64,000 bases of DNA from Arthrobacter stackebrandtii (GTDB lineage Bacteria > Actinomycetota > Actinomycetes > Actinomycetales > Micrococcaceae): contig NZ_JAGIOI010000001.1 of the NCBI RefSeq assembly GCF_017876675.1, positions 4,092,001 through 4,156,000 on the forward strand. Direction: 5' to 3'. Made by a program: the position numbers and the translations under genes. A model generated the notes under the pieces. That model did not search any database, had not been told where the DNA came from, and saw only the letters and a list, made by a program, of their open reading frames with translations. Positions 1 through 59,503 of this stretch are shown piece after piece; positions within the stretch are counted from its first letter, which is position 1; every line of letters begins with the position of its first letter.

Positions 1-1317
1 CAGGCCGTGCGGTGGAACTTGTTCCAGCTGGCGCAGGCAACAGCGCGGGCCGACGTTGCCGGCATCCCTGCCAAGGGCGTAACAGGTTCCGGCTACGAGG
101 GCCACTACTTCTGGGACCAGGAAATCTACCTGCTTCCCTACCTGAGCTACACCAACCCGGGGGCGGCCCGGGATGTGCTGCAGTTCCGGCACAACCTGCT
201 GCCGCTGGCCAGGGAGCGGGCCACCGAGTTGAGCGTGGACGGGGCCATGTTCCCCTGGCGGACCATCGCCGGACTGGAAGCCAGCGCGTATTACGCCGCA
301 GGCACGGCACAGTTCCACATCGGCGCGGCCATCGCCTTCGCGGCGAACCGCTACGTGTGGGCCACCGGCGACACGGAGTTCCGTGACCACCAGGCCACCG
401 ACCTGCTGGTCGAGACGGCCCGCATGTGGGTCTCCCTGGGCTTTTTCGGGGCGGACGGGGCGTTCCACATCCACGGCGTGACCGGCCCGGATGAGTACAC
501 GGCCGTGGTCAACGACAACCTCTACACCAACGTCATGGCCCGCTTCAACCTGCGCGCCGCCGCAGCCTGCCGCCGCGATGATGTCTCCGACGAGGAGCGC
601 GCCGTCTGGCAGGAGGCTGCCGACCGCATGCACCTGCCCTTCGACCGCACCCACAACGTGTACGCCCAGGACAACGACTTCATGACGCTCGAACCCTGGG
701 ACTGGAACACGCCCCGGGAGAAGTACCCGCTGCTGCTGCACTTCCACCCGCTGGTCATCTACCGCCACCAGGTGCTCAAGCAGGCCGACACCGTGCTGGC
801 CATGTTCCTGCAGTGGCAGGAGTTCACGGCGGATGAAAAGCGCCGCGCCTTTGAGTTCTACGACCCCATCACCACCGGCGACTCCACCCTCTCCGCCTGC
901 GTCCAGGGCATCATGGCGGCCGAGGTGGGCCATCCCATGGAGGCGCTGGAGCACTTCACCGAGGCCGTCTTCATCGATCTGGACGATTCCCACAACAACA
1001 CGGTCGACGGCGTGCACATCGCCTCCGCCGGCGGCATCTGGAGCTCCCTCGTGTCGGGCTTCGCCGGCATGCGGGACCAGGGGCTCATGCTCTACTTCGA
1101 CCCCCGCCTGCCTGCCGGATGGGACGGCATCGACTTCCAGCTGAAGGTCCGGGGCGGCCTGCTGGGCGTGTCGCTCACGCATGGGGAGATTGCGTTCACG
1201 TACGACGGCGCCAGCCGCTTGTCCCTGAAGGTCCGGGACACGGTGGTCGCCGTGGGTGCGGGGCAGCCCGCCAAGGTGGCACTGAAAGATGACGTGAAGC
1301 TGTCGTTGGCCGAGTAA
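1..1317 (+). CDS. Glycoside hydrolase family 65 protein, C-terminal part (5' end outside window)
   Basis: The reading frame is open from base 1, so the N-terminal half lies outside the window. The visible 438 residues are the (alpha/alpha)6 catalytic barrel and the C-terminal beta domain of a GH65 enzyme (maltose, trehalose or kojibiose phosphorylase type). Family hallmarks are GSGYEGHYFWDQE near the visible start and HIHGVTGPDEYT, whose Glu (codon 493-495) matches the family's general acid. FHPLVIYRHQVLKQADTV and a late HIASAGGIW stretch, in the phosphate/substrate loop of phosphorylases, are also present. GH65 phosphorylases split an alpha-glucosidic disaccharide with phosphate into beta-glucose 1-phosphate and glucose. 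The substrate cannot be read from this part, and a hydrolase is possible. The stop is followed after 58 bases by the retron RNA on the same strand. Confidence 0.9.
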   Translation, partial: QAVRWNLFQLAQATARADVAGIPAKGVTGSGYEGHYFWDQEIYLLPYLSYTNPGAARDVLQFRHNLLPLARERATELSVDGAMFPWRTIAGLEASAYYAAGTAQFHIGAAIAFAANRYVWATGDTEFRDHQATDLLVETARMWVSLGFFGADGAFHIHGVTGPDEYTAVVNDNLYTNVMARFNLRAAAACRRDDVSDEERAVWQEAADRMHLPFDRTHNVYAQDNDFMTLEPWDWNTPREKYPLLLHFHPLVIYRHQVLKQADTVLAMFLQWQEFTADEKRRAFEFYDPITTGDSTLSACVQGIMAAEVGHPMEALEHFTEAVFIDLDDSHNNTVDGVHIASAGGIWSSLVSGFAGMRDQGLMLYFDPRLPAGWDGIDFQLKVRGGLLGVSLTHGEIAFTYDGASRLSLKVRDTVVAVGAGQPAKVALKDDVKLSLAE

Positions 1318-1375
1318 CCGGCGTCGAACGTCATTTTCGCAAGAGCGGACGCAACCGTCAGTTAGCATGGCCGTA

Positions 1376-1543
1376 TGCGATGGTTTCTTCGATGAGGCGG
1401 GAAGCGGCCTTTGGCGCGCATCCCTCCCCGGGGCTACCCCGGGGCACGAAATATTGCCTGATCCATGCACCGCAGGTGCGGCACTGCGCTCCGCGCAGCT
1501 GCGCACCCGCACAGACAGCCGGGTCATCGGGGAAGCCATCGCA
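1376..1543 (+). ncRNA. Candidate retron msr-msd RNA (a1/a2 duplex with internal hairpins)
   Basis: Bases 1376-1395 and 1524-1543 pair along 20 consecutive positions (17 Watson-Crick, 3 G-U), ending where position 1396 faces 1523 (G-G). This matches the terminal a1/a2 inverted repeat that closes retron msr-msd transcripts. Inside are a perfect 8-bp hairpin (CCCCGGGG, loop CTA, CCCCGGGG; 1426-1444) and a longer interrupted hairpin at 1472-1510. In the longer one GGTGCG pairs with CGCACC, then a 3x3 internal loop, then CTGCGC pairs with GCGCAG around a TCC loop. The first resembles an msr stem and the second an msd stem. A possible branching guanosine is G1404 in an AGC eight bases after a1; this is a guess. 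The reverse transcriptase ATG follows a2 by 3 bases. The transcript ends and the reverse-transcribed part are inferred, not seen. Confidence 0.75.
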
Positions 1544-1546
1544 GCC

Positions 1547-2968
1547 ATGACCGCTCAGCCTCGCGCCAGAGCAGCCGGGCGCGCCGATCCGGCTGTGGCC
1601 CCTGTTACCGCGGCGTCGGCAACCCTGAAGCGCACGCCCCGCCCCTCGCCAACCGCCATTGCCGCGACACTGGCACAGGCCTTCCTCAGTTCCCCTGACT
1701 GGTCCAAGCCGGCCCTCATGGAGTCCGGCGCCCAAGTTTTGGGCGCCCGGCGGCGTTGGCTGGGACCGCTGGCAGCCCAGGTTCTGCGGAGCCATCCCCG
1801 CCCACCCGTGGACGCCCCGCGCGAGCTGGCCGCGCTGGTACTGGTGAGCGAACCGTTTGTGGAGGCGCTCGCCAAGTCCGTGCAGCAACGCAAACCAATC
1901 CATTTGGCCCGCTACGTGCTGGCCGCCGGCGCGGCCCGCGACAGCCAGGTCCGCGGTGCCCCGCGGATCGACACCGTGGGCGCGTTGGCCGCGCGGCTCG
2001 GGCTGGGCGTCGGGGAGCTCGACTGGTTTGCCGACCCCCGGCACTGGAACAGGCGGGCCGATGCGCGCCTGCAGCACTACCGCTACCGGTGGCTGGTGCG
2101 CCCGGGCCGCGTGCCCCGGCTGTTGGAGATCCCCCGCCCACGGCTGCGCTTCCTGCAGCGTGCCGTGCTGCGGGAACTGCTCCACCCATTGCCGCTGCAC
2201 GATGCCGCCCACGGTTTCGTGCCCGGCCGCAGTGCCGTCACAGGCGCCGCACAGCACACCGGGCGGGCCGTCGTGGTGAACCTTGACTTGGCTTCATTCT
2301 TCGCACATGTCACCGCAGGGCGCGTGTTTGGCGTACTCCGCCAGGCCGGGTTCACCGAGGCCGTGGCGCACCAGCTCACCGGCCTGTGCACGCATGTCGT
2401 GCCGCCGCGCATCCTGGTCCAGATGCCTCCCGGCGGCGACCCTGCCGACCGGCTGGCCCTGCGCCAGGCGCTCTCGCTCCCCCACCTTCCCCAGGGTGCA
2501 CCCACCTCCCCCACCCTGGCGAACCTGTCACTGCGCCGGCTGGATTCCCGCCTTGCGGGCCTCGCTGAAAAGTTCGACGGCGGCTACACCAGGTACGCCG
2601 ACGACCTCGCCTTTAGCGGCGGCCGGGACATGCTGCGCCGGGCAGACGCACTGGTCCGCGCGGCGGGCACGATTGTCGAAGATGAGGGCCACCGCCTCAA
2701 CCGCCTGAAATCCCGGGTGCGTCCGGCGGGAACGCGCCAGGCCGTCACCTCGGTCGTGGTCAACGAACGCACCAACTTGGCCCGTGACGACTTTGACCGG
2801 CTCAAGGCAATCATCCACAACTGCCGCGTGCACGGGCCGGAGTCGCAGAACCGGGACTCCGTGCCCGAATTCCGCAGCCACCTGCTGGGCCGCATTTCCT
2901 GGCTTTCGTCGCTCAACCCGGCCCGGGGCGCAAGGCTGCGGCAGGCGTTTGACCTCATCACTTGGTGA
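1547..2968 (+). CDS. Retron-type reverse transcriptase with N-terminal extension
   Basis: 473 residues. An N-terminal helical region of about 175 residues has no family I recognise. The polymerase follows: VVVNLDLASFF (first catalytic Asp at 247), LPQGAPTSPTLANL, and YTRYADDLAFSG with YADD at 350-353 (Asp352/353). QAVTSVVVN near 398-406 stands where retron enzymes carry VTG. The thumb follows to the end. The enzyme should use the RNA at 1376-1543 to prime and template a branched RNA-DNA. Myxococcal retron enzymes have a similar long N-terminal extension (from memory). I chose ATG 1547 rather than in-frame ATG 1367, because the upstream frame runs through the folded RNA and has no recognisable protein content. 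GGGGA at 1529-1533, inside a2, is the nearest ribosome-binding sequence. No effector gene adjoins it: the left neighbour is GH65 and the right one a cox operon. Confidence 0.85.
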   Translation: MTAQPRARAAGRADPAVAPVTAASATLKRTPRPSPTAIAATLAQAFLSSPDWSKPALMESGAQVLGARRRWLGPLAAQVLRSHPRPPVDAPRELAALVLVSEPFVEALAKSVQQRKPIHLARYVLAAGAARDSQVRGAPRIDTVGALAARLGLGVGELDWFADPRHWNRRADARLQHYRYRWLVRPGRVPRLLEIPRPRLRFLQRAVLRELLHPLPLHDAAHGFVPGRSAVTGAAQHTGRAVVVNLDLASFFAHVTAGRVFGVLRQAGFTEAVAHQLTGLCTHVVPPRILVQMPPGGDPADRLALRQALSLPHLPQGAPTSPTLANLSLRRLDSRLAGLAEKFDGGYTRYADDLAFSGGRDMLRRADALVRAAGTIVEDEGHRLNRLKSRVRPAGTRQAVTSVVVNERTNLARDDFDRLKAIIHNCRVHGPESQNRDSVPEFRSHLLGRISWLSSLNPARGARLRQAFDLITW

Positions 2969-3010
2969 CGGTCCGTCCCGCAAAGCCGGGGGCGTCGACG
3001 TGCAGGCTTG

Positions 3011-3115
3011 TCGCACACCGGCCTCCCGCCGCCCGCCAGCTCGCTGCGGGGCCCTCGGCCGCAATCGCACACCGGCCTCCCGCCGCTCGCCAGCTCGCGC
3101 GGGGCCCTCGGCCGC
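3011..3115 (+). repeat. Two-copy tandem repeat of about 52 bp
   Basis: Bases 3011-3062 and 3065-3115 are near-identical copies starting TCGCACACCGGCCTCCCGCC and ending GGGGCCCTCGGCCGC. They differ by one C/T change and one deleted base, and are separated by AA. The pair fills the space between the reverse transcriptase stop and the coxD start. It could result from replication slippage or form a GC-rich structure; there is no T-run typical of a terminator. Only two copies exist, so it is not a CRISPR array. Confidence 0.8.
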
Positions 3116-3128
3116 TATGCTTGGGGGC

Positions 3129-4010
3129 ATGACGACGACGTCCACTGCCTCCGCGTCCGCCCTCGCGGCCAGCCTGGCCGAAACCGGCTACCTGGCCGAC
3201 GAGGGGCTGGCCACCATCGCCTACCTCGCCATGGCCATGGAAAGGCCGCTGCTGCTGGAGGGCGAGCCCGGCACCGGCAAGACGGCCATGGCCGAAGCCA
3301 TCGCCGAAGCGTTCGGCCTGCCGCTCATCCGGCTCCAGTGCTATGAAGGGATCGACGCCGCACAGGCACTCTACGACTGGGACTTCACCGCGCAAATACT
3401 GCACCTGCGCAGCGTTGAGGCCGGCGGCGGAAACCCTGGCACGGAAGAACTCGAGAAATCGCTCTACGACGAACGGTTCCTGCTGGCCCGGCCCATACTC
3501 AAGGCGCTGCAGCAAAGCCCGGCAGTGCTGCTGATCGACGAAATTGACCGGGCCGACGACGAATTTGAGGCCTTCCTGCTTGAAGTCCTCTCCAATTACC
3601 AGGTTTCCATTCCGGAATTTGGCACGGTCAAGGCTGCCACCCCTCCCATCGTGGTGCTCACCTCAAACCGCACCCGCGACCTCCATGACGCGTTGAAGCG
3701 CCGCTGCCTTTACCACTGGATCGACCATCCAGGACTGGCCCGCGAGGTGCAGATCGTGCGCACCCGGCTCCCCCAGGTTCCCGTGCTGCTGGCCGAGCAG
3801 GTGGTCCGGGCCGTGCAGCAGATCCGGGCCACGGACGATGTCATGAAGCCGCCCGGAGTGGCCGAAACCCTCGACTGGGCCAGGGCGCTGCACCTGCTCG
3901 GCAGCGCCGAACTCGACCTGGAATCGGCCGCCGCCAGCATCGGGGCCCTGTGCAAATACCGCGAAGACACCGCACGCGTCACGGCCACGCTGGCCAGGAT
4001 CCTGGGCTGA
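3129..4010 (+). CDS. coxD: MoxR-family AAA+ ATPase, CoxD-like
   Basis: 293 residues. It has a Walker A motif (GEPGTGKTAMAEAIA), Walker B (AVLLIDEIDRADDEFEAFLLE), a sensor-1-type VLTSNRTRDLHDALKRRC and a C-terminal helical lid. MoxR ATPases remodel or insert cofactors into partner enzymes together with a VWA protein. CoxD of the CO dehydrogenase cluster is needed for assembling the CuSMoO2 centre in Oligotropha. The VWA partner starts 3 bases downstream, which supports the CoxD role. ATG 3129 is preceded by a weak GGGGG; an open frame continues upstream into the reverse transcriptase gene but codes for no conserved residues. Because the rest of the operon encodes a form II enzyme lacking the CO-specific motif, the exact cofactor it matures is uncertain. 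Confidence 0.88.
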   Translation: MTTTSTASASALAASLAETGYLADEGLATIAYLAMAMERPLLLEGEPGTGKTAMAEAIAEAFGLPLIRLQCYEGIDAAQALYDWDFTAQILHLRSVEAGGGNPGTEELEKSLYDERFLLARPILKALQQSPAVLLIDEIDRADDEFEAFLLEVLSNYQVSIPEFGTVKAATPPIVVLTSNRTRDLHDALKRRCLYHWIDHPGLAREVQIVRTRLPQVPVLLAEQVVRAVQQIRATDDVMKPPGVAETLDWARALHLLGSAELDLESAAASIGALCKYREDTARVTATLARILG

Positions 4011-4013
4011 GCC

Positions 4014-5162
4014 ATGGCGGCGGCCCATCCGGCAGCGACGGCACATGGCGGACCGGCGACGTCCGGCGCCTCCGCCGAGGAGATCCTCCTGGCCTTCGCC
4101 GCTGCCCTCCGCAATGCCGGTGTCAAGGTCACTGCGGATCGGTCGCGCAGCTTTGTCGACGCCGTGGCGCACCTGTCCATGGCGCACCGTGCCGATGTGT
4201 TTTGGGCCGGCCGGGCAACGCTGTGCGCGGCCCCCGAGGACCTCGAAACCTACCAGCGGACCTTCGAGAGCTGGTTCGCGCCGGCGCATGTGCCGGGCGG
4301 AGCACCCCAGGGCTCGCCGATCCCCGTGAAGGCCGCCTCCCTGGACGACGACAGCGGAACAGGCTCCGACACGGACGGAGAGGAGGCCCTGCAGGCGGTG
4401 GCTAGCCGCCGCGAGCTGCTGCGCCACCGCGACGTGGCCACCCTCGATGATGCTGACCGGGAACTGCTGCACCGCATGTTCGCGGATCTTCCCGTTGCTC
4501 TGCCCACCCGCCAAAGCCGGCGCAGGCACACGGCCCGCCACGGCAGCATCGACCAGGTCCGCACCTTGCGCGAACAGCTTCGTCGGGGCGGCGAACCCGG
4601 CCCGCTGAAATATGGCAGGGCCCCCCGAAAACCCCGGAGGGTGGTGTGGCTGGTGGACGTCTCCGGTTCCATGGCGCCCTACGCGGACAGCCTGCTGCGC
4701 CTGGCCCACCGCGTCCTCCAGGAGGCGCCGTCGCAGGTGGAGGTGTTTACGCTCGGCACCCGCCTGACACGGGTCACCGCCGCACTCAAACTGCCCGACC
4801 CCGACGACGCCCTGGCCCAGGCCGGGCGCACCGTGCCGGACTGGCAGGGAGGCACCCGGCTCGGCGAGGTCCTGCGGGCGTTCAACGACAGGTGGGGGCA
4901 GCGCGCGGTGGCGAGGTCCGCCGTCGTGATTGTGGCCAGTGACGGCTGGGAGCGCGGGAGTTCCGAACTGCTGGGCCGGCAGGCGGAGCGGCTGCACCAT
5001 GTGGCCCGGCGCGTCATCTGGGCCAACCCGCACCGGGGTAAAAACGGCTATGAACCCGTGCAGCAGGGAATCAGGGCCGTCCTGCCGCACGTTGATTACT
5101 TTGTAGGGGGCCACTCATTGAAGAGCTTCGAGGAGTTGTTGGGCGTGATGGGCAATGCGTGA
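4014..5162 (+). CDS. coxE: VWA domain protein, CoxE-like
   Basis: 382 residues. A variable N-terminal half with charged stretches is followed by a von Willebrand A domain, whose MIDAS motif VDVSGSMAPYADSLL binds a divalent metal. The conserved TLGTRLTRVTAAL and VIVASDGWERG segments of CoxE-type proteins are present. CoxE works with the CoxD ATPase in maturation of the molybdenum enzyme. It begins 3 bases after coxD, and its last codons overlap the start of the xdhC-like gene by 8 bases, so the three genes should be translated together. No signal peptide is seen, so it should act in the cytoplasm. Confidence 0.87.
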   Translation: MAAAHPAATAHGGPATSGASAEEILLAFAAALRNAGVKVTADRSRSFVDAVAHLSMAHRADVFWAGRATLCAAPEDLETYQRTFESWFAPAHVPGGAPQGSPIPVKAASLDDDSGTGSDTDGEEALQAVASRRELLRHRDVATLDDADRELLHRMFADLPVALPTRQSRRRHTARHGSIDQVRTLREQLRRGGEPGPLKYGRAPRKPRRVVWLVDVSGSMAPYADSLLRLAHRVLQEAPSQVEVFTLGTRLTRVTAALKLPDPDDALAQAGRTVPDWQGGTRLGEVLRAFNDRWGQRAVARSAVVIVASDGWERGSSELLGRQAERLHHVARRVIWANPHRGKNGYEPVQQGIRAVLPHVDYFVGGHSLKSFEELLGVMGNA

Positions 5163-6300
5163 AGTGTTGAAGGATTTGGTGGAGGCCGTGGAAGCCGGGC
5201 ACACGGTGGGGCTGGGGACGGTGGTGCGCACCTTCCGCTCGGCGCCGCGGCCGGCGGGCGCCTCCATGATGGTCGACGCCGGCGGGCTGGCTGTGGGGTC
5301 CGTGTCCGGCGGGTGTGTGGAGGGCGCCCTGTACGAGCTCGCCACCGAGGTCGCGGCGGACGGGACGCCGGTGCTGCAGCGCTACGGCATCAGCGACGAC
5401 GACGCCTTCGAGGTGGGGCTGACGTGCGGGGGCATCATCGACGTCTTCGTCGAGGCTGTTTCCAGGGAGACGTTTCCGGAGCTGGCCCATGTGGCCGCGG
5501 AGGTGGCTGCGGACCGGCCCGTGGCCGTGGTGACGGTGATCGAGCACCCCGACCGGGCTTGGCTGGGCCGGCACCTGGTGGTGCACCCTGACGGCTTCGA
5601 GGGAACGCTCGGTTCCGAGCGCGCCGACCATGCCGTCAGCGACGACGCCATGGGGCTGCTGGCCGCGGGCCGCAATACGACGCTCATGTACGGCCCGGAC
5701 GGCGAACGGCGCGGGGACGGCATGCGCGTGTTTGTGGCCAGTTTTGCCCCGCAGCCGCGCATGCTTGTTTTTGGTGCGATCGACTTCGCCGCCGCCGTGG
5801 CCAGGCAGGGCAGCTTCCTGGGCTACCGCGTGACGGTGTGCGACGCCCGCGCCGTGTTCGCCACGAAGGCCCGCTTCCCCGTGGCCGACGAGGTGGTGGT
5901 GGAATGGCCGCACCGCTACCTGCAGGCGCAGATCGACGCCGGGCTCATCGACGCCCGCACCGTGATCTGCGTGCTCACGCACGACCCCAAGTTCGACGTG
6001 CCCCTCCTGGAGGTGGCGCTGCGCCACGACGTCGCGTATGTGGGCGCCATGGGCTCGCGCAAGACCCACGACGACCGCCTGGACCGGCTGCGCGAGGCGG
6101 GCCTGGCCGGCGTCGAACTTGAAAGGCTCTCCAGCCCCATCGGCCTGGACCTGGGCTCGCGCACTCCGGAGGAGACGGCCGTCTCCATCGCGGCGGAGAT
6201 CATTGCCCTGCGCTGGGGCGGTGCCGGCGGGCGGCTGAGCCTCATGGACACGCGCATCCACCACGTGCCCGTGGCCGATGCCGAGCACGAGGGTGCGTGA
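5155..6300 (+). CDS. coxF: XdhC/CoxF family molybdenum-cofactor maturation protein
   Basis: 381 residues. It has an N-terminal XdhC/CoxI domain (GSVSGGCVEGALYE, with the conserved Cys) and a C-terminal Rossmann-type XdhC domain (GAIDFAAAVARQGSFLGYRVTVCD; CVLTHDPKFDVPLLEVAL; YVGAMGSRKT). XdhC binds molybdenum cofactor, protects its sulfurated form and passes it to the large subunit of xanthine dehydrogenase-type enzymes. The start codon lies inside the end of coxE. The 114-base gap to coxS contains TTTAGGAGA just before the coxS start, so coxSLM may also have its own promoter. Confidence 0.9.
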   Translation: MREVLKDLVEAVEAGHTVGLGTVVRTFRSAPRPAGASMMVDAGGLAVGSVSGGCVEGALYELATEVAADGTPVLQRYGISDDDAFEVGLTCGGIIDVFVEAVSRETFPELAHVAAEVAADRPVAVVTVIEHPDRAWLGRHLVVHPDGFEGTLGSERADHAVSDDAMGLLAAGRNTTLMYGPDGERRGDGMRVFVASFAPQPRMLVFGAIDFAAAVARQGSFLGYRVTVCDARAVFATKARFPVADEVVVEWPHRYLQAQIDAGLIDARTVICVLTHDPKFDVPLLEVALRHDVAYVGAMGSRKTHDDRLDRLREAGLAGVELERLSSPIGLDLGSRTPEETAVSIAAEIIALRWGGAGGRLSLMDTRIHHVPVADAEHEGA

Positions 6301-6414
6301 GCCGGCCGCGCCATGGGGCCTAACTTTTCCGGGGCCGCTCATGTAACGTAAGGCACATCATGGGCTGGAGCATTGCTGCTTGGCATGAGCTCCACGGATA
6401 TTTAGGAGATCTCA

Positions 6415-6950
<536 letters not shown>

Positions 6951-6954
<4 letters not shown>

Positions 6955-9335
6955 CCGCCACGGCAACCCCGAAACCGGAAATTGGCACGGCCAGGCTGCG
7001 CAAGGAAGACGCCCACCTGATCACGGGCCGCTCCCGCTTCACCGACAACATGGTGCTGCCGGGCATGCTGCACCTGGCCATGGTGCGCAGCCCGTTCGCC
7101 CACGCAAAGATCACCTCCGTTGACGTTGCCGCGGCCAAGGCCTCCCCCGGCGTCCTCGACGTCCTGACCGGCGCCGACGTGGCGCAAGAGCAGGGCTCAC
7201 TGCCCAACGCCTGGCCCATCACCCCGGACCAAAAAGCACCCGCCCACCCGTCGGTCGCCGTGGACGAGGTGGCCTTCTCCGGGGAAATCGTGGCCGTGAT
7301 CATCGCCCGCAGCGTGGCCGCCGCCCGTGACGCCGTCGAGCTTGTCGACGTGGACTACGAAGAGCTGCCGGTGGTCATGGACCTCGAGGAGGCCTACACG
7401 GACAAGGTCCTGGCCCACACCTCGCTGGACTCCAACAAGTCCGCCACCTGGGTGTTTGATTCGGCCCAGGCCGGCACGGGCACCGACGTTGACGCCGAAC
7501 TGGCCGCCTCCGACGTGGTGGTGGAGCGGACCCTGTACCAGCAGCGGCTGATCCCGGCATTCATGGAGCCCCGCTCCACCGTGGTGGACCCCACCGGCCA
7601 GCAGATCACCATGTGGAGCGCCACGCAGATCCCGCACATCCTGCGGCTCATGCTGGCCCTGACGCTGGGCATCCCCGAAGGCAAGCTGCGCGTCGTCGCC
7701 CCTGACGTGGGAGGCGGTTTCGGCGGCAAGCTGCAGGTCACGCCCGAGGAAGTCATCACCCTGCTGGCGGCCCGGCGCATGGGCAAGCCGGTCAAGTACA
7801 CCGAGACCCGCAGCGAATCCCTGCAGGCCGCCCACCACGGCAGGGCACAGGTCCAGCGGCTGAAGATCGGCGCCACGAAGGACGGCATCGTCACCGGCCT
7901 GCACGTGGACCTGCTGGCAGACATGGGCGCCTACCTGGGCCTGGTCACCTCCGGCGTCCCCATCCTGGGCGCGTTCATGTACAACTCCATCTACAAGTTC
8001 CCGTCCTACCGCTTTGAGTGCCACAACATCTTCACCAACAAGGCGTGGACGGACGCCTACCGCGGCGCCGGCCGGCCCGAAGCCACCTTTGCCATCGAGC
8101 GGATGATGGACGAGCTGGCCGTGGAGCTGGACATGGACCCCCTCGAACTGCGCGAGAAGAACTGGATCAAGCACGAGGAGTTCCCCTTCGCCACGGTGGC
8201 CGGGCTGGAATACGACACCGGCAACTACGAGGCCGCCACGGAGAAGGCCGTGGAACTCTTCGACTACGACGGCTTCCGGGCGGAGCAAAAGCGCCGCCGC
8301 GACGCCGGCGACACCGTGCAGCTGGGCATCGGCATCTCCACGTTCACGGAGATGTGCGGGCTGGCCCCGTCCCGCGTGCTCGGCTCGCTGAGCTACGGCG
8401 CCGGCGGCTGGGAACACGCCCAGGTGCGGATGCTGCCCACCGGAAACGTCGAAGTGGTCACCGGTTCCTCGGCGCACGGGCAGGGCCACGAAACCGCGTG
8501 GAGCCAGCTCGTTGCGGACCGGCTCGGCGTGCCGTTTGAGAATGTGGAGGTGCTGCACGGCGACACCCAGGTGTCCCAGCGCGGCCTCGACACCTACGGC
8601 TCCCGGTCCCTCTCCGTGGGCGGCATGGCGGTGCTGGCCGCGGCCGACAAGGTCATCGAGAAGGCCAAGGTCATTGCCGCGCACCTGATGGAGGCCAACG
8701 AGGACGACCTCGAGTTTGCCCACGGCGCCTTCACCGTCAAGGGCACGGACCAGTCCACGGCCATCGGCGAGGTTGCCCTCGCCGTGTTCGCGGCACACAA
8801 CATGCCCGACGGAGTGGAGCCCAACCTGGATTCCGAGGCCACCTTCGACCCCGTCAACTTCTCCTACCCGCACGGCACCCACCTGGCGGCCATGGAGGTG
8901 GACACCGAAACCGGCGAGGCCCGCATCCTCAAGTACGTGTGCGTGGACGATGTCGGGGTGGTGGTCAACCCCATGCTCGTGGAGGGGCAGGTGCACGGCG
9001 GCCTGGCCCAGGGCATCGCCCAGGCACTCTACGAGGAAGCCGTCTACGACGACGCCGGGACCCTCGTCTCGGGATCGTTCGTGGACTACCTCGTCCCGAG
9101 CGCACCGGACCTGCCTCACTACATCACGGCCCGCACGGAGACCCCGGCAACCAGCAACCAGCTGGGTGCGAAGGGCGTGGGCGAGGCCGGCACCATCGCC
9201 TCCACCCCCGCGATCGTCAACGGGGTGTTGGACGCCATCCGCCACCTCGGCGTGACGGACATCAAGATGCCGTGCACGCCCTCGCGTGTGTGGCATGCCC
9301 TGCAGGAAGCCAAGACCACCGGAGGTGTGCAGTGA
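6951..9335 (+). CDS. coxL: Molybdenum hydroxylase large subunit, form II CoxL-like
   Basis: 794 residues of the xanthine dehydrogenase/CO dehydrogenase large subunit. Visible motifs are the cofactor loop GGGFGGK, the form II active-site loop [24 protein letters not shown] and the late [13 protein letters not shown], whose Glu matches the family's catalytic base. True (form I) CO dehydrogenases carry AYxCSFR with a Cys that binds Cu. Here AYRGAGR lacks that Cys, so CO oxidation is doubtful and another aldehyde, purine-like or aromatic substrate is possible. It forms a dimer of trimers with CoxS and CoxM. The ATG overlaps the coxS stop, and the stop overlaps the GTG start of coxM. Confidence 0.92.
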
Positions 9336-32860: not shown

Positions 32861-33642
32861 GCACCCTGTCCCCCTCAGCCGTAGACGTCGTCATCATCGC
32901 CGCCATGGAGGAGGAAATCACCCCCTTCCTGGAGCGCGCCGATTCCGTCGGCACCCCCGTCCGGGTGGGCCATTCCATCCAGCGCACGGGCCTGCTCGGC
33001 GGTGCCCGCACCTTGTTCGTCCAGGGCGGGATCGGCCTGGTGAACGCCGCCGGAGCCGCCACGTCCGCACTGCTCCACGCCGCACGCACCAACGGTGACG
33101 GCGTCCTGCCGCTGGTCATCAGCGCCGGCACCGCCGGGGGCCTGGGCGATGAAGTCCGCGTGGGCGACGTCGTCATCGGCACCGACACCATCAATGCCGA
33201 CGCCGACGCACAGGCCTTCGGCTACAAGCTGGGCCAGGTTCCGGGCATGCCGGTTTCCTACCCTGTGCCGGATGCCCTGCTCGCCGCCTTCGATGTGGAC
33301 CTGTCCGCGCCGCGGCTGGTCGAGACCGTGCACCGCGGGCTCATGGTCTCCAGCTACAAGTTCGTGGACCAGGAACGCGCCGTGGCCATCAAGGACCACT
33401 TTGACCAGGTGCTCTCCACCGACATGGAATCCTCCGCCATCGCCCAGACGGCCCACGTCCACGGGGCCCCGTTCCTGGCCATCCGCGGCATCTCCGACCT
33501 CTGCGGCCCGGCAGCCAATGCCGACTTTGCCACGCATGTCGACGACGCCGCCGAGCGTTCGGCCGAGATCGCCGCGGCGGTTGTGGCCGCATGGTTCGCG
33601 GCAAGGGCCGCCACCCGGGACACAACACCGGCCGCTTCCTAG
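32857..33642 (+). CDS. mtnN: 5'-methylthioadenosine/S-adenosylhomocysteine nucleosidase
   Basis: 261 residues, PNP/UDP phosphorylase fold. It opens with [19 protein letters not shown] (the early Glu belongs to the catalytic pair), then [37 protein letters not shown] and [30 protein letters not shown]. In the last, Met-Glu binds the ribose and Asp is the catalytic acid. It removes adenine from SAH, MTA and 5'-deoxyadenosine. Coupled with luxS it completes the activated methyl cycle. Confidence 0.93.
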
Positions 33643-33660: not shown

Positions 33661-33724
33661 CCCAAAAAGTACGACGGCGGCAGGCGCCCTTCGCTGGAAG
33701 GGCGCCTGCCGCCGTCGAACTTGG
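33661..33724. terminator. Strong bidirectional terminator
   Basis: A perfect 21-bp stem (33672-33692 with 33697-33717, starting CGACGGCGGCAGG) closes a GCTG tetraloop. Flanking CCCAA...AAGT and ACTT...GGG extend the symmetry to 33661-33724. It separates the convergent mtnN and tetR-family genes. Confidence 0.9.
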
Positions 33725-33736
33725 GAAAGGCTGTGC

Positions 33737-34387
33737 CTACCCAGGCGGGCAGGTTCCGGTCATGCGCACGATGACCTTGGCCACCTGCTCAATGAATTCG
33801 GCCGTGGGTTCGCGCTGGGACGGTTTGGTCTCCACCCGCTGCACGAGCGCCTCGGTGATGCCCCCGATCAGGATGAGGCTGGTCAGCCCCTTCGGGGCGG
33901 CGTCGATCAGGCCCGCGGCGGCGATGTCCTCGAAGGCCGCATCGACGGCCGATGCCATCCGCCGCGTGGTGAGGCGGCGCTCCCGGGCGAGGGCCTGCGA
34001 GACGCCGACCACCTCAACCTGGAGCACGCGCGCCTTCCGTTCGTCCGCCAGCATGGGCCCGAGCGCGGCGGCAACCAACTGCTTCACGGCGCTGAGCGCA
34101 TCCGGGGCCGGCAGCACGGTGCGGGCGGCGATGGCGGCGAGGACCTCGTTGTTCAGGTCGTGGTAAAGCTGGGTCAGCAGCTCGCCCTGGTCGGCATAAA
34201 GCTCGTAGAAGGAGCGCGTGGAAACCCTGGCGCCCTGGCACACGGCATGGACAGTGGTGGCGCGGTAGCCTTGGGTGCCGTAGAGCTCCAGCGCCGCATC
34301 GAGCAGCCGGCGCCGGCGTTCCTGGTCCCGCACATTGCGTTCAGTGCCATGCCACAGGACGTGGTCAACGGGAAAATCTGGCCTCAT
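33737..34387 (-). CDS. TetR-family regulator
   Basis: 216 residues. The helix-turn-helix is DQERRRRLLDAALELYGTQGYRATTVHAVCQGARVSTRSFYELYADQGELL at about 20-70, followed by a helical ligand domain. It is divergent from an FMO-SDR operon across 65 bases containing an AT-rich palindrome, so it is probably the repressor of that operon and of itself. Confidence 0.9.
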   Translation of the reverse strand: MRPDFPVDHVLWHGTERNVRDQERRRRLLDAALELYGTQGYRATTVHAVCQGARVSTRSFYELYADQGELLTQLYHDLNNEVLAAIAARTVLPAPDALSAVKQLVAAALGPMLADERKARVLQVEVVGVSQALARERRLTTRRMASAVDAAFEDIAAAGLIDAAPKGLTSLILIGGITEALVQRVETKPSQREPTAEFIEQVAKVIVRMTGTCPPG

Positions 34388-59364: not shown

Positions 59365-59450
59365 TCCATGGCGACTGGGTTGGCTGTGGATTTCGCCGCA
59401 TACGCCCGGTCCAGGTGATCAACAACGAAGCCTCACCATCAAGATAGGCG

Positions 59451-59490
59451 CAGCTGGAGGCGGGGCCCGCGATGGCCCCGCCTCCAGCTG
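59451..59490. terminator. Strong bidirectional terminator
   Basis: CAGCTGGAGGCGGGGCC (59451-59467) pairs perfectly with 59474-59490 around CGCGAT, a 17-bp stem. It separates the convergent reductase and beta-CASP genes. Confidence 0.9.
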
Positions 59491-59503
59491 TGTCCCGCTG
59501 CGT

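Follow-up and report, generated by a model that had tools for sequence, protein, structure and literature searches.

Do the inverted repeat and the reverse transcriptase (RT) gene that adjoin each other in the actinobacterium Arthrobacter stackebrandtii form a retron, and, if they do, what might such a retron be for? An earlier sequence-only reading, made from the letters of this DNA, had proposed a candidate actinobacterial retron here. We have followed that proposal through a window of 64,000 nt (the whole stretch of DNA analysed, to whose first letter the positions below refer) and through related genomes, plasmids, phage records and viral contigs.

Retron RTs with experimental validation came only from the Gamma- and Deltaproteobacteria in the relevant part of a 2019 review, which also refers to putative Actinobacteria retrons catalogued in bioinformatic surveys (PMC6868368). 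A 2022 review adds msDNA from Alphaproteobacteria and Bacteroides, and mentions some retrons without a clear association with an effector gene (PMC8867640). A literature search, beyond whose reach lay the main retron-type and census papers, returned no account of the present RNA or of an Arthrobacter retron. Retrons as such are a known kind of element, and RTs of this group are already present, untyped, in PADLOC; the RNA belongs to no Rfam 15 family (E ≤ 1).

The proposal is upheld by RNA covariation, RNA-RT linkage, and RT profile scores and fold. Taken with a conserved promoter box and an invariant guanosine, these lead us to regard the locus as very probably a retron, consisting of a structured RNA and an RT only.

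Structured RNA 5′ of the reverse transcriptase

The sequence-only reading had described a 20-pair duplex enclosing an 8-bp perfect hairpin and a 14-pair interrupted hairpin, with a YADD-bearing RT beginning 3 bases further on. The duplex is exactly as described: its arms, a1 and a2 (Table 1), form 20 ungapped pairs, 17 Watson-Crick and three G-U, with no mismatches. The perfect hairpin was found at 1426-1433/1437-1444, with the loop CTA, and the RT does begin 3 bases 3′ of a2. The interrupted hairpin is also present, although its minimum-energy fold has 16 pairs and not 14. When 1318-1560 was folded, as had been suggested, the minimum-energy structure (−121.8 kcal/mol, z −4.53) contained all 20 a1/a2 pairs, and none of 200 shuffles folded as well. 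Folded as DNA, the putative msd strand is unremarkable (z −1.82, with 11/200 shuffles as good).

Table 1. Features of the locus, with positions in the window and the basis for each
Feature	Position	Strand	Basis
-10-like promoter box, TAGCAT	1363..1368	+	6 nt before the first base of the RNA; TANNNT in 35/35
Structured ncRNA, putative msr-msd transcript	1375..1545	+	covariance model, 162.9 bits (window sequence itself among the model's training rows); compensatory changes
a1, 5′ arm of closing duplex	1376..1395	+	13/16 consensus helix pairs changed on both sides
Putative priming (branch) guanosine	1396..1396	+	first base past a1; G in 54/54 relatives
First msr stem-loop, variable in sequence	1399..1424	+	consensus helix 3: 3/5 pairs changed on both sides, 89.0% of cells paired
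Second msr stem-loop, 8 bp with 3-nt loop	1426..1444	+	100% of cells paired in 33 relatives
Putative msd hairpin	1472..1510	+	consensus helices 5 and 6: 7/11 pairs compensated
a2, 3′ arm of closing duplex	1524..1543	+	20-bp pairing with a1; covariation
Retron RT, 473 aa	1547..2968	+	RVT_1, PADLOC profiles, fold matches; YADD at 2594-2605
RT N-terminal helical domain	1610..1885	+	five helices predicted; no relative found in Pfam or PDB

Such a helix might be a chance inverted repeat beside an RT pseudogene, and the high G+C content, which favours long G-C helices, and the frames open on both strands would suit that explanation. However, none of 1,000 dinucleotide-preserving shuffles of 1318-1560 reached 20 pairs in an ungapped helix, the best having 18. 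The covariation described below, in training and held-out relatives alike, and RT dN/dS values well below 1 likewise oppose it, and together with the shuffles they leave this explanation a vanishingly small probability; we treat it as ruled out.

The window was also scanned for ungapped helices in 128 segments of 243 nt, one per 500 nt, and a single segment (score 21) outscored the 20-pair duplex. It contains an inverted repeat at 33667-33722 (26 nt, with a 4-nt loop and 96% complementarity), which follows a frame ending at 33642, precedes an opposite-strand frame ending at 33737, and is probably an ordinary terminator.

For comparison among relatives, we aligned the region 5′ of the RT from 33 distinct family members and derived a consensus with RNAalifold. 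This consensus has 43 pairs, 24 of which show compensatory change on both sides; 95.6% of cells pair, and the covariation score of 0.383 compares with 0.154 for shuffled alignments and with no more than 0.090 once the partner is slid. A covariance model built on these 33 relatives was then run, at E ≤ 1e-4, on loci outside the set, and it matched RNA 5′ of 21 of the 24 held-out RTs that have upstream DNA. The matched loci include Microbacterium, Cryobacterium, all 11 order-level loci, three of four phylum-level loci, plasmids of Tsukamurella and Dietzia, two Burkholderia replicons and a gammaproteobacterial MAG. Among the three RTs at which the model found no RNA, L054 and L006 each have a similar GGG/CCC hairpin enclosed by a closing helix, of 17 bp in the former and 11 bp in the latter; L101 shows nothing clear.

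In the 21 held-out relatives, 34/43 pairs changed on both sides and 94.1% of cells paired (34-46% in slid controls), figures in which a bias towards pairing is to be expected because this alignment follows the structure of the model. The second msr stem-loop had 98.8% of cells paired and 4/8 pairs compensated in this set, and the msd hairpin (helices 8-10) had 9/11 pairs compensated. Thus the two marks by which the sequence-only reading was to be judged, compensatory change and an inverted repeat conserved in relatives, are both present, the closing helix included. On this comparative evidence, the folded RNA 5′ of the RT is real and is conserved as a structure.

The model gave no RNA match at three loci whose RTs have about 27-29% identity (L052, L053 and L096), at the RT remnants L075, L093 and L095, at L097, which has no RT match at E ≤ 1e-15, or at L007, where the contig begins just 5′ of the RT. 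Two weak matches at 59448-59493 in the window (E 0.24 and 0.57), together with others that fall on the strand opposite the RNA or at L003, were treated as chance hits or palindrome echoes. A known Rfam family as the identity of the RNA was rejected after an Rfam 15 search of window positions 1-6000 had yielded none at E ≤ 1; the search thus recognised neither an intron nor any other known RNA. A coding sequence was rejected as well: the frame 5′ of 1547 is open from an ATG at 1367, yet this stretch varies among relatives as paired RNA. The sequence-only reading had attributed the missing protein signal there to the RNA.

Upstream of a1, the motif TANNNT stands at one aligned place in every one of 35 family members and at none of 1,009 other upstream positions in the same stretches, with a G two bases 5′ of the box in 94%. 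These counts suggest that the RNA is most likely transcribed from a promoter of its own, with a start near 1375. The base immediately past a1 is G in all 33 training and all 21 held-out relatives, and is preceded by A in 33/33 and 19/21 of them, respectively. This is the place, at the inner end of a1, that section 6 of PMC6868368 defines for the priming guanosine; the context here, GAG[G/A], is absent from the five contexts given in that source. In the consensus structure this G has a downstream C as its partner, in a pair that is invariant and hence uninformative.

A different reading takes the RNA for an autoregulatory or RT-binding element that is not reverse transcribed into msDNA. A Shine-Dalgarno-like GGGGAAG lies inside a2 at 1529-1535, 11 nt 5′ of the RT start; a1/a2 pairing could thus throttle RT translation in the window strain. 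Among relatives, however, the spacing between the conserved stem and the aligned start of the RT varies between about 5 and about 243 nt (with starts extrapolated from protein matches and not taken from mapped start codons), and the full set of retron features is kept, including the msd-like hairpin and the invariant G at the priming place. We therefore think purely regulatory use of the RNA improbable, and return to its reading as the msr-msd transcript of a retron.

Reverse transcriptase and its N-terminal domain

The RT matches RVT_1 in Pfam, and its best PADLOC models, RT_other (PDLC02949, 584 bits) and RT_outgroup (PDLC03740, 542 bits), align over nearly its full length. Both labels are without a type, and their top scores imply that RTs of this kind have already been collected in PADLOC. 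The best typed retron model is that of type XIII, at 278 bits half the score of RT_other, and the present locus differs from that type also in having no partner gene common between lineages. NCBIfam retron families score 128-143 bits, below their cut-offs (the St85 RT family, for example, scores 143 against a cut-off of 235), and the non-retron families for group II intron RT and Drt2 score 46 and 33 bits. By sequence, the closest PDB entry is the Ec86 RT (7v9u, E 3.2e-25). An AlphaFold2 model of the protein (pLDDT 89.3) was compared with known folds by Foldseek, in which ranks 1-18 are all retron RTs; a group II RT follows at rank 19, DRT2 at 24 and a DGR at 25.

Motifs expected of retron RTs are YADD, an NAxxH-like X motif and a VTG-like Y motif, according to the portion of PMC4244168 that treats them. 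In the family, YADD occurs in 36/37 RTs, and the H of the X motif in all 37, with G in place of N in 30 of them (the window sequence is GAAQH, not NAxxH); VTG occurs in 24/37, the window having VTS.

By profile score and fold rank, then, the RT groups with retron RTs and not with those of group II introns, DGRs or DRTs, in keeping with the candidate retron of the sequence-only reading. The point bears on a further explanation, namely, that the locus is some other RT system with an ncRNA, of DRT type, or a derivative of a group II intron or DGR. DRT2 likewise has an ncRNA adjoining its RT (PMC12039810), but both rankings favour retron RTs, and no Rfam family was found over positions 1-6000 at E ≤ 1; we consider this explanation very improbable indeed.

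Judged by dN/dS, which is 0.12-0.28 in nine of ten pairs, the RT is under purifying selection; the tenth value, 0.37, comes from a near-identical pair too similar to judge. In G+C content the gene, at 0.71 (0.83 at third positions), resembles its neighbours, at 0.66-0.71 (0.83-0.92).

Residues 22-113 of the RT form a helical domain that is conserved in the family; modelled on its own, it has five predicted helices and a pLDDT of 84.2. Three members of the family gave no Pfam match to this domain up to E 5, and none of the 48 PDB matches listed for its fold was at E ≤ 0.001. As far as these comparisons with Pfam and PDB extend, the predicted domain resembles no known effector.

Retron features and proposed working

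The layout of the locus agrees with descriptions of retrons. The ends of a retron RNA are complementary over about 8-30 bases, the msr has one to three hairpins of about 7-10 bp with loops of 3-10 nt, and the msd is a single hairpin with a long interrupted stem of about 10-50 bp, in the parts of PMC6868368 that deal with RNA structure. The 20-bp closing duplex falls inside the first range; the msr region has the stem of 8 bp with its 3-nt loop and a variable stem of 5 consensus pairs; and the msd region has a hairpin of 11 consensus pairs, with 16 in the window fold. The gene order is also that of a retron: the structured RNA immediately precedes the RT on the same strand, and its msr comes before its msd. 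Tripartite defence retrons, the typed retrons of PADLOC and Mestre, have in addition an effector gene or a fused effector domain. Here no neighbour of at least 60 aa within 5 kb is common to the lineages compared, a generic ABC transporter ATPase apart, and the fused domain has no relative in Pfam or among the PDB folds listed.

Two sets of known retrons invite comparison. Binding by the RT of Retron Eco1 (Ec86) needs an msr core with an 8-bp stem and a three-base loop (section 6 of PMC6868368), and the most conserved stem of the present RNA has the same size; because its dimensions match that core, the stem at 1426-1444 is a likely RT recognition site. In the fold comparison, too, the closest solved structure is that of Eco1 (7v9x, E 4.5e-18). 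Eco1 differs in having a separate effector (7v9x), whereas none is common at the present locus; the RT here carries an additional N-terminal domain, and identity in the fold alignment is about 25%.

The second comparison is with the myxobacterial retrons, in which the RT has an extended N-terminus, msDNA was found in 27/28 strains and inheritance is likely vertical, by the account in PMC6868368. The Arthrobacter-type retron resembles those named Mxa1 (Mx162), Mxa2 (Mx65), Sau1 (Sa163) and Nex2 (Ne144) in its RT N-terminal extension, a likeness in presence only that does not imply homology, and in its presence across the host group. To our knowledge, these four also have no neighbouring effector. 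They belong to another phylum, and they differ in RNA size (the transcript of Mx162 has 241 nt, the RNA here about 170) and in priming context (CAGC or GAGC, as against GAG[G/A]), where PMC6868368 gives these values.

From these parallels we propose the following working. A transcript would start near 1375 from an extended -10 promoter at 1363-1368, and its ends, a1 and a2, would close into the 20-bp helix. The RT would dock on the conserved stem at 1426-1444, prime at the 2′-OH of G1396 and, beginning at about 1523, copy leftward across the msd hairpin, halting before that stem. After trimming by RNase H, the product would be a branched molecule of RNA and DNA, its DNA part very roughly 60-75 nt long. 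For the place of docking, the priming, the branch, the limits of copying and the length of the product, we reason here by analogy with known retrons.

Distribution, inheritance and possible role

A search of the same genus with the RT gave a match in 20/23 genomes, full-length in 18, and among these sampled species the RNA and the full RT occur in the identical 18/23 genomes; since the 18 RNAs are themselves training rows, the joint absence in the other five is the informative part of this figure. In wider searches the RT had matches in 64/395 genomes of the family at E ≤ 0.001 (37 at E ≤ 1e-100), 15/396 of the order at E ≤ 1e-20 (13 at E ≤ 1e-100) and 5/396 of the phylum at E ≤ 1e-20, the own genome counted. 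A search of the order with the RNA alone, under stricter filters by which weak matches are lost, found it in 12/297 genomes (ten of them outside the training set), at one place in each and every time at an RT. The genomes of order and genus searched in this way held no orphan copies of the RNA. The own genome has a single copy of the RT and a single copy of the RNA.

Several degraded copies were seen. One (L094) has an intact RNA and an RT that matches only as two separate pieces, and two RT remnants (L075 and L093) lie at the chromosomal place of intact copies in related genomes.

Plasmid records with an RT match number 90; the best six have 38-50% RT identity, and the analysis took in the sequence of five of the 90. 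The RNA-RT unit is present on a Tsukamurella plasmid (L099) and a Dietzia plasmid (L100), and so can ride on plasmids. A phage-borne family was rejected as an explanation: the eight phage records with an RT match have at most 30% identity, and the best 80 of 168 confirmed viral contigs have 25-40%, so that no close relative was seen in either.

Neighbouring genes were compared at 57 loci as frames of at least 60 aa within 5 kb of the RT, and the loci were assigned to 18 lineage groups by genus labels and record names; loci at contig ends contributed less flank. RT-overlapping frames aside, no protein family recurs in more than three of the 18 groups except an ABC transporter ATPase (ABC_tran), found in six groups at varying places and on varying strands. 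A shared effector at the locus is therefore rejected within that range. Flanks are common within some lineages (in most genomes of group g31, and in another set spanning g1, g28 and g29, where the RT remnants L075 and L093 occupy the corresponding place) and differ between lineages.

Distances between RTs correlate with those between RpoB sequences (a piece of about 1.8 kb, incompletely matched in two genomes) over 30 genomes, with a Pearson coefficient of 0.50 that was reached in 0/2000 permutations. This agreement is only partial, and one conflict is clear, the RTs of g23 nesting among those of g1; inheritance has therefore not been purely vertical. We infer that the element has persisted in its lineages over long spans of time and has occasionally moved. 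Set beside the vertical pattern of the myxobacterial type, its record is one of presence in 18/23 genus genomes, of sites common within lineages and differing between them, and of g23 RTs placed within g1.

What the retron does may be read in two ways. It may be an anti-phage retron, the effector of which is unlinked or is the fused N-terminal domain, and the RNA-DNA complex of which restrains that effector until a phage disturbs it. Retrons of known function are phage defence systems (PMC12548924, PMC8867640), some PADLOC types are named with fused effectors, and the family here conserves its N-terminal domain. Against defence, the ABC transporter ATPase is the only family in more than three of 18 groups within 5 kb, the N-terminal domain is like no known effector in Pfam or among PDB folds, and neither the phage records nor the 80 viral contigs listed hold a close relative. 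Defence modules are typically patchy and phage-carried, and presence in 18/23 genomes of a genus is unlike that pattern. Defence is for us a serious possibility that falls short of being probable.

The reading we prefer is that of a long-retained chromosomal retron of the myxobacterial kind, which would act through the RT N-terminal domain or an unlinked factor and not through a neighbouring toxin. A long-retained role is attractive because there is no linked effector, presence in the genus is wide, the RT is under selection and the N-terminal domain has no known relatives. Stated in full, this would be a domesticated, effector-less retron lineage with one RNA fold, one RT architecture and a new N-terminal domain, near-core in the genus and present in several actinomycete lineages, in Burkholderia and in a gammaproteobacterium, the msDNA of which serves housekeeping and not the guarding of a toxin. 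That full proposal we advance tentatively, at somewhat less than an even chance.

The absence of a shared effector, the breadth of presence in the genus, the conserved promoter box, and the related RNAs in other actinobacteria, Burkholderia and a gammaproteobacterial MAG all go beyond the sequence-only reading. An RNA family that covaries so strongly makes msDNA testable in easily grown soil actinobacteria, and a locus of this type does the same for the role of retrons without a neighbouring toxin. A retron adapted to high G+C could also supply single-stranded DNA in actinobacteria.

Two further observations concern the surroundings of the locus and the remainder of the genome. Downstream, at 3129-9335, lie genes for an AAA ATPase, VWA_CoxE, XdhC_CoxI, a [2Fe-2S] subunit and a molybdopterin-binding large subunit, which look like a molybdenum hydroxylase operon of the CO dehydrogenase/xanthine dehydrogenase type. 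Elsewhere in the same genome, a second RT (C1:324805-325476) carries a group II intron maturase domain (GIIM) and lies inside a region that reads by eye as an IS3-type transposase.
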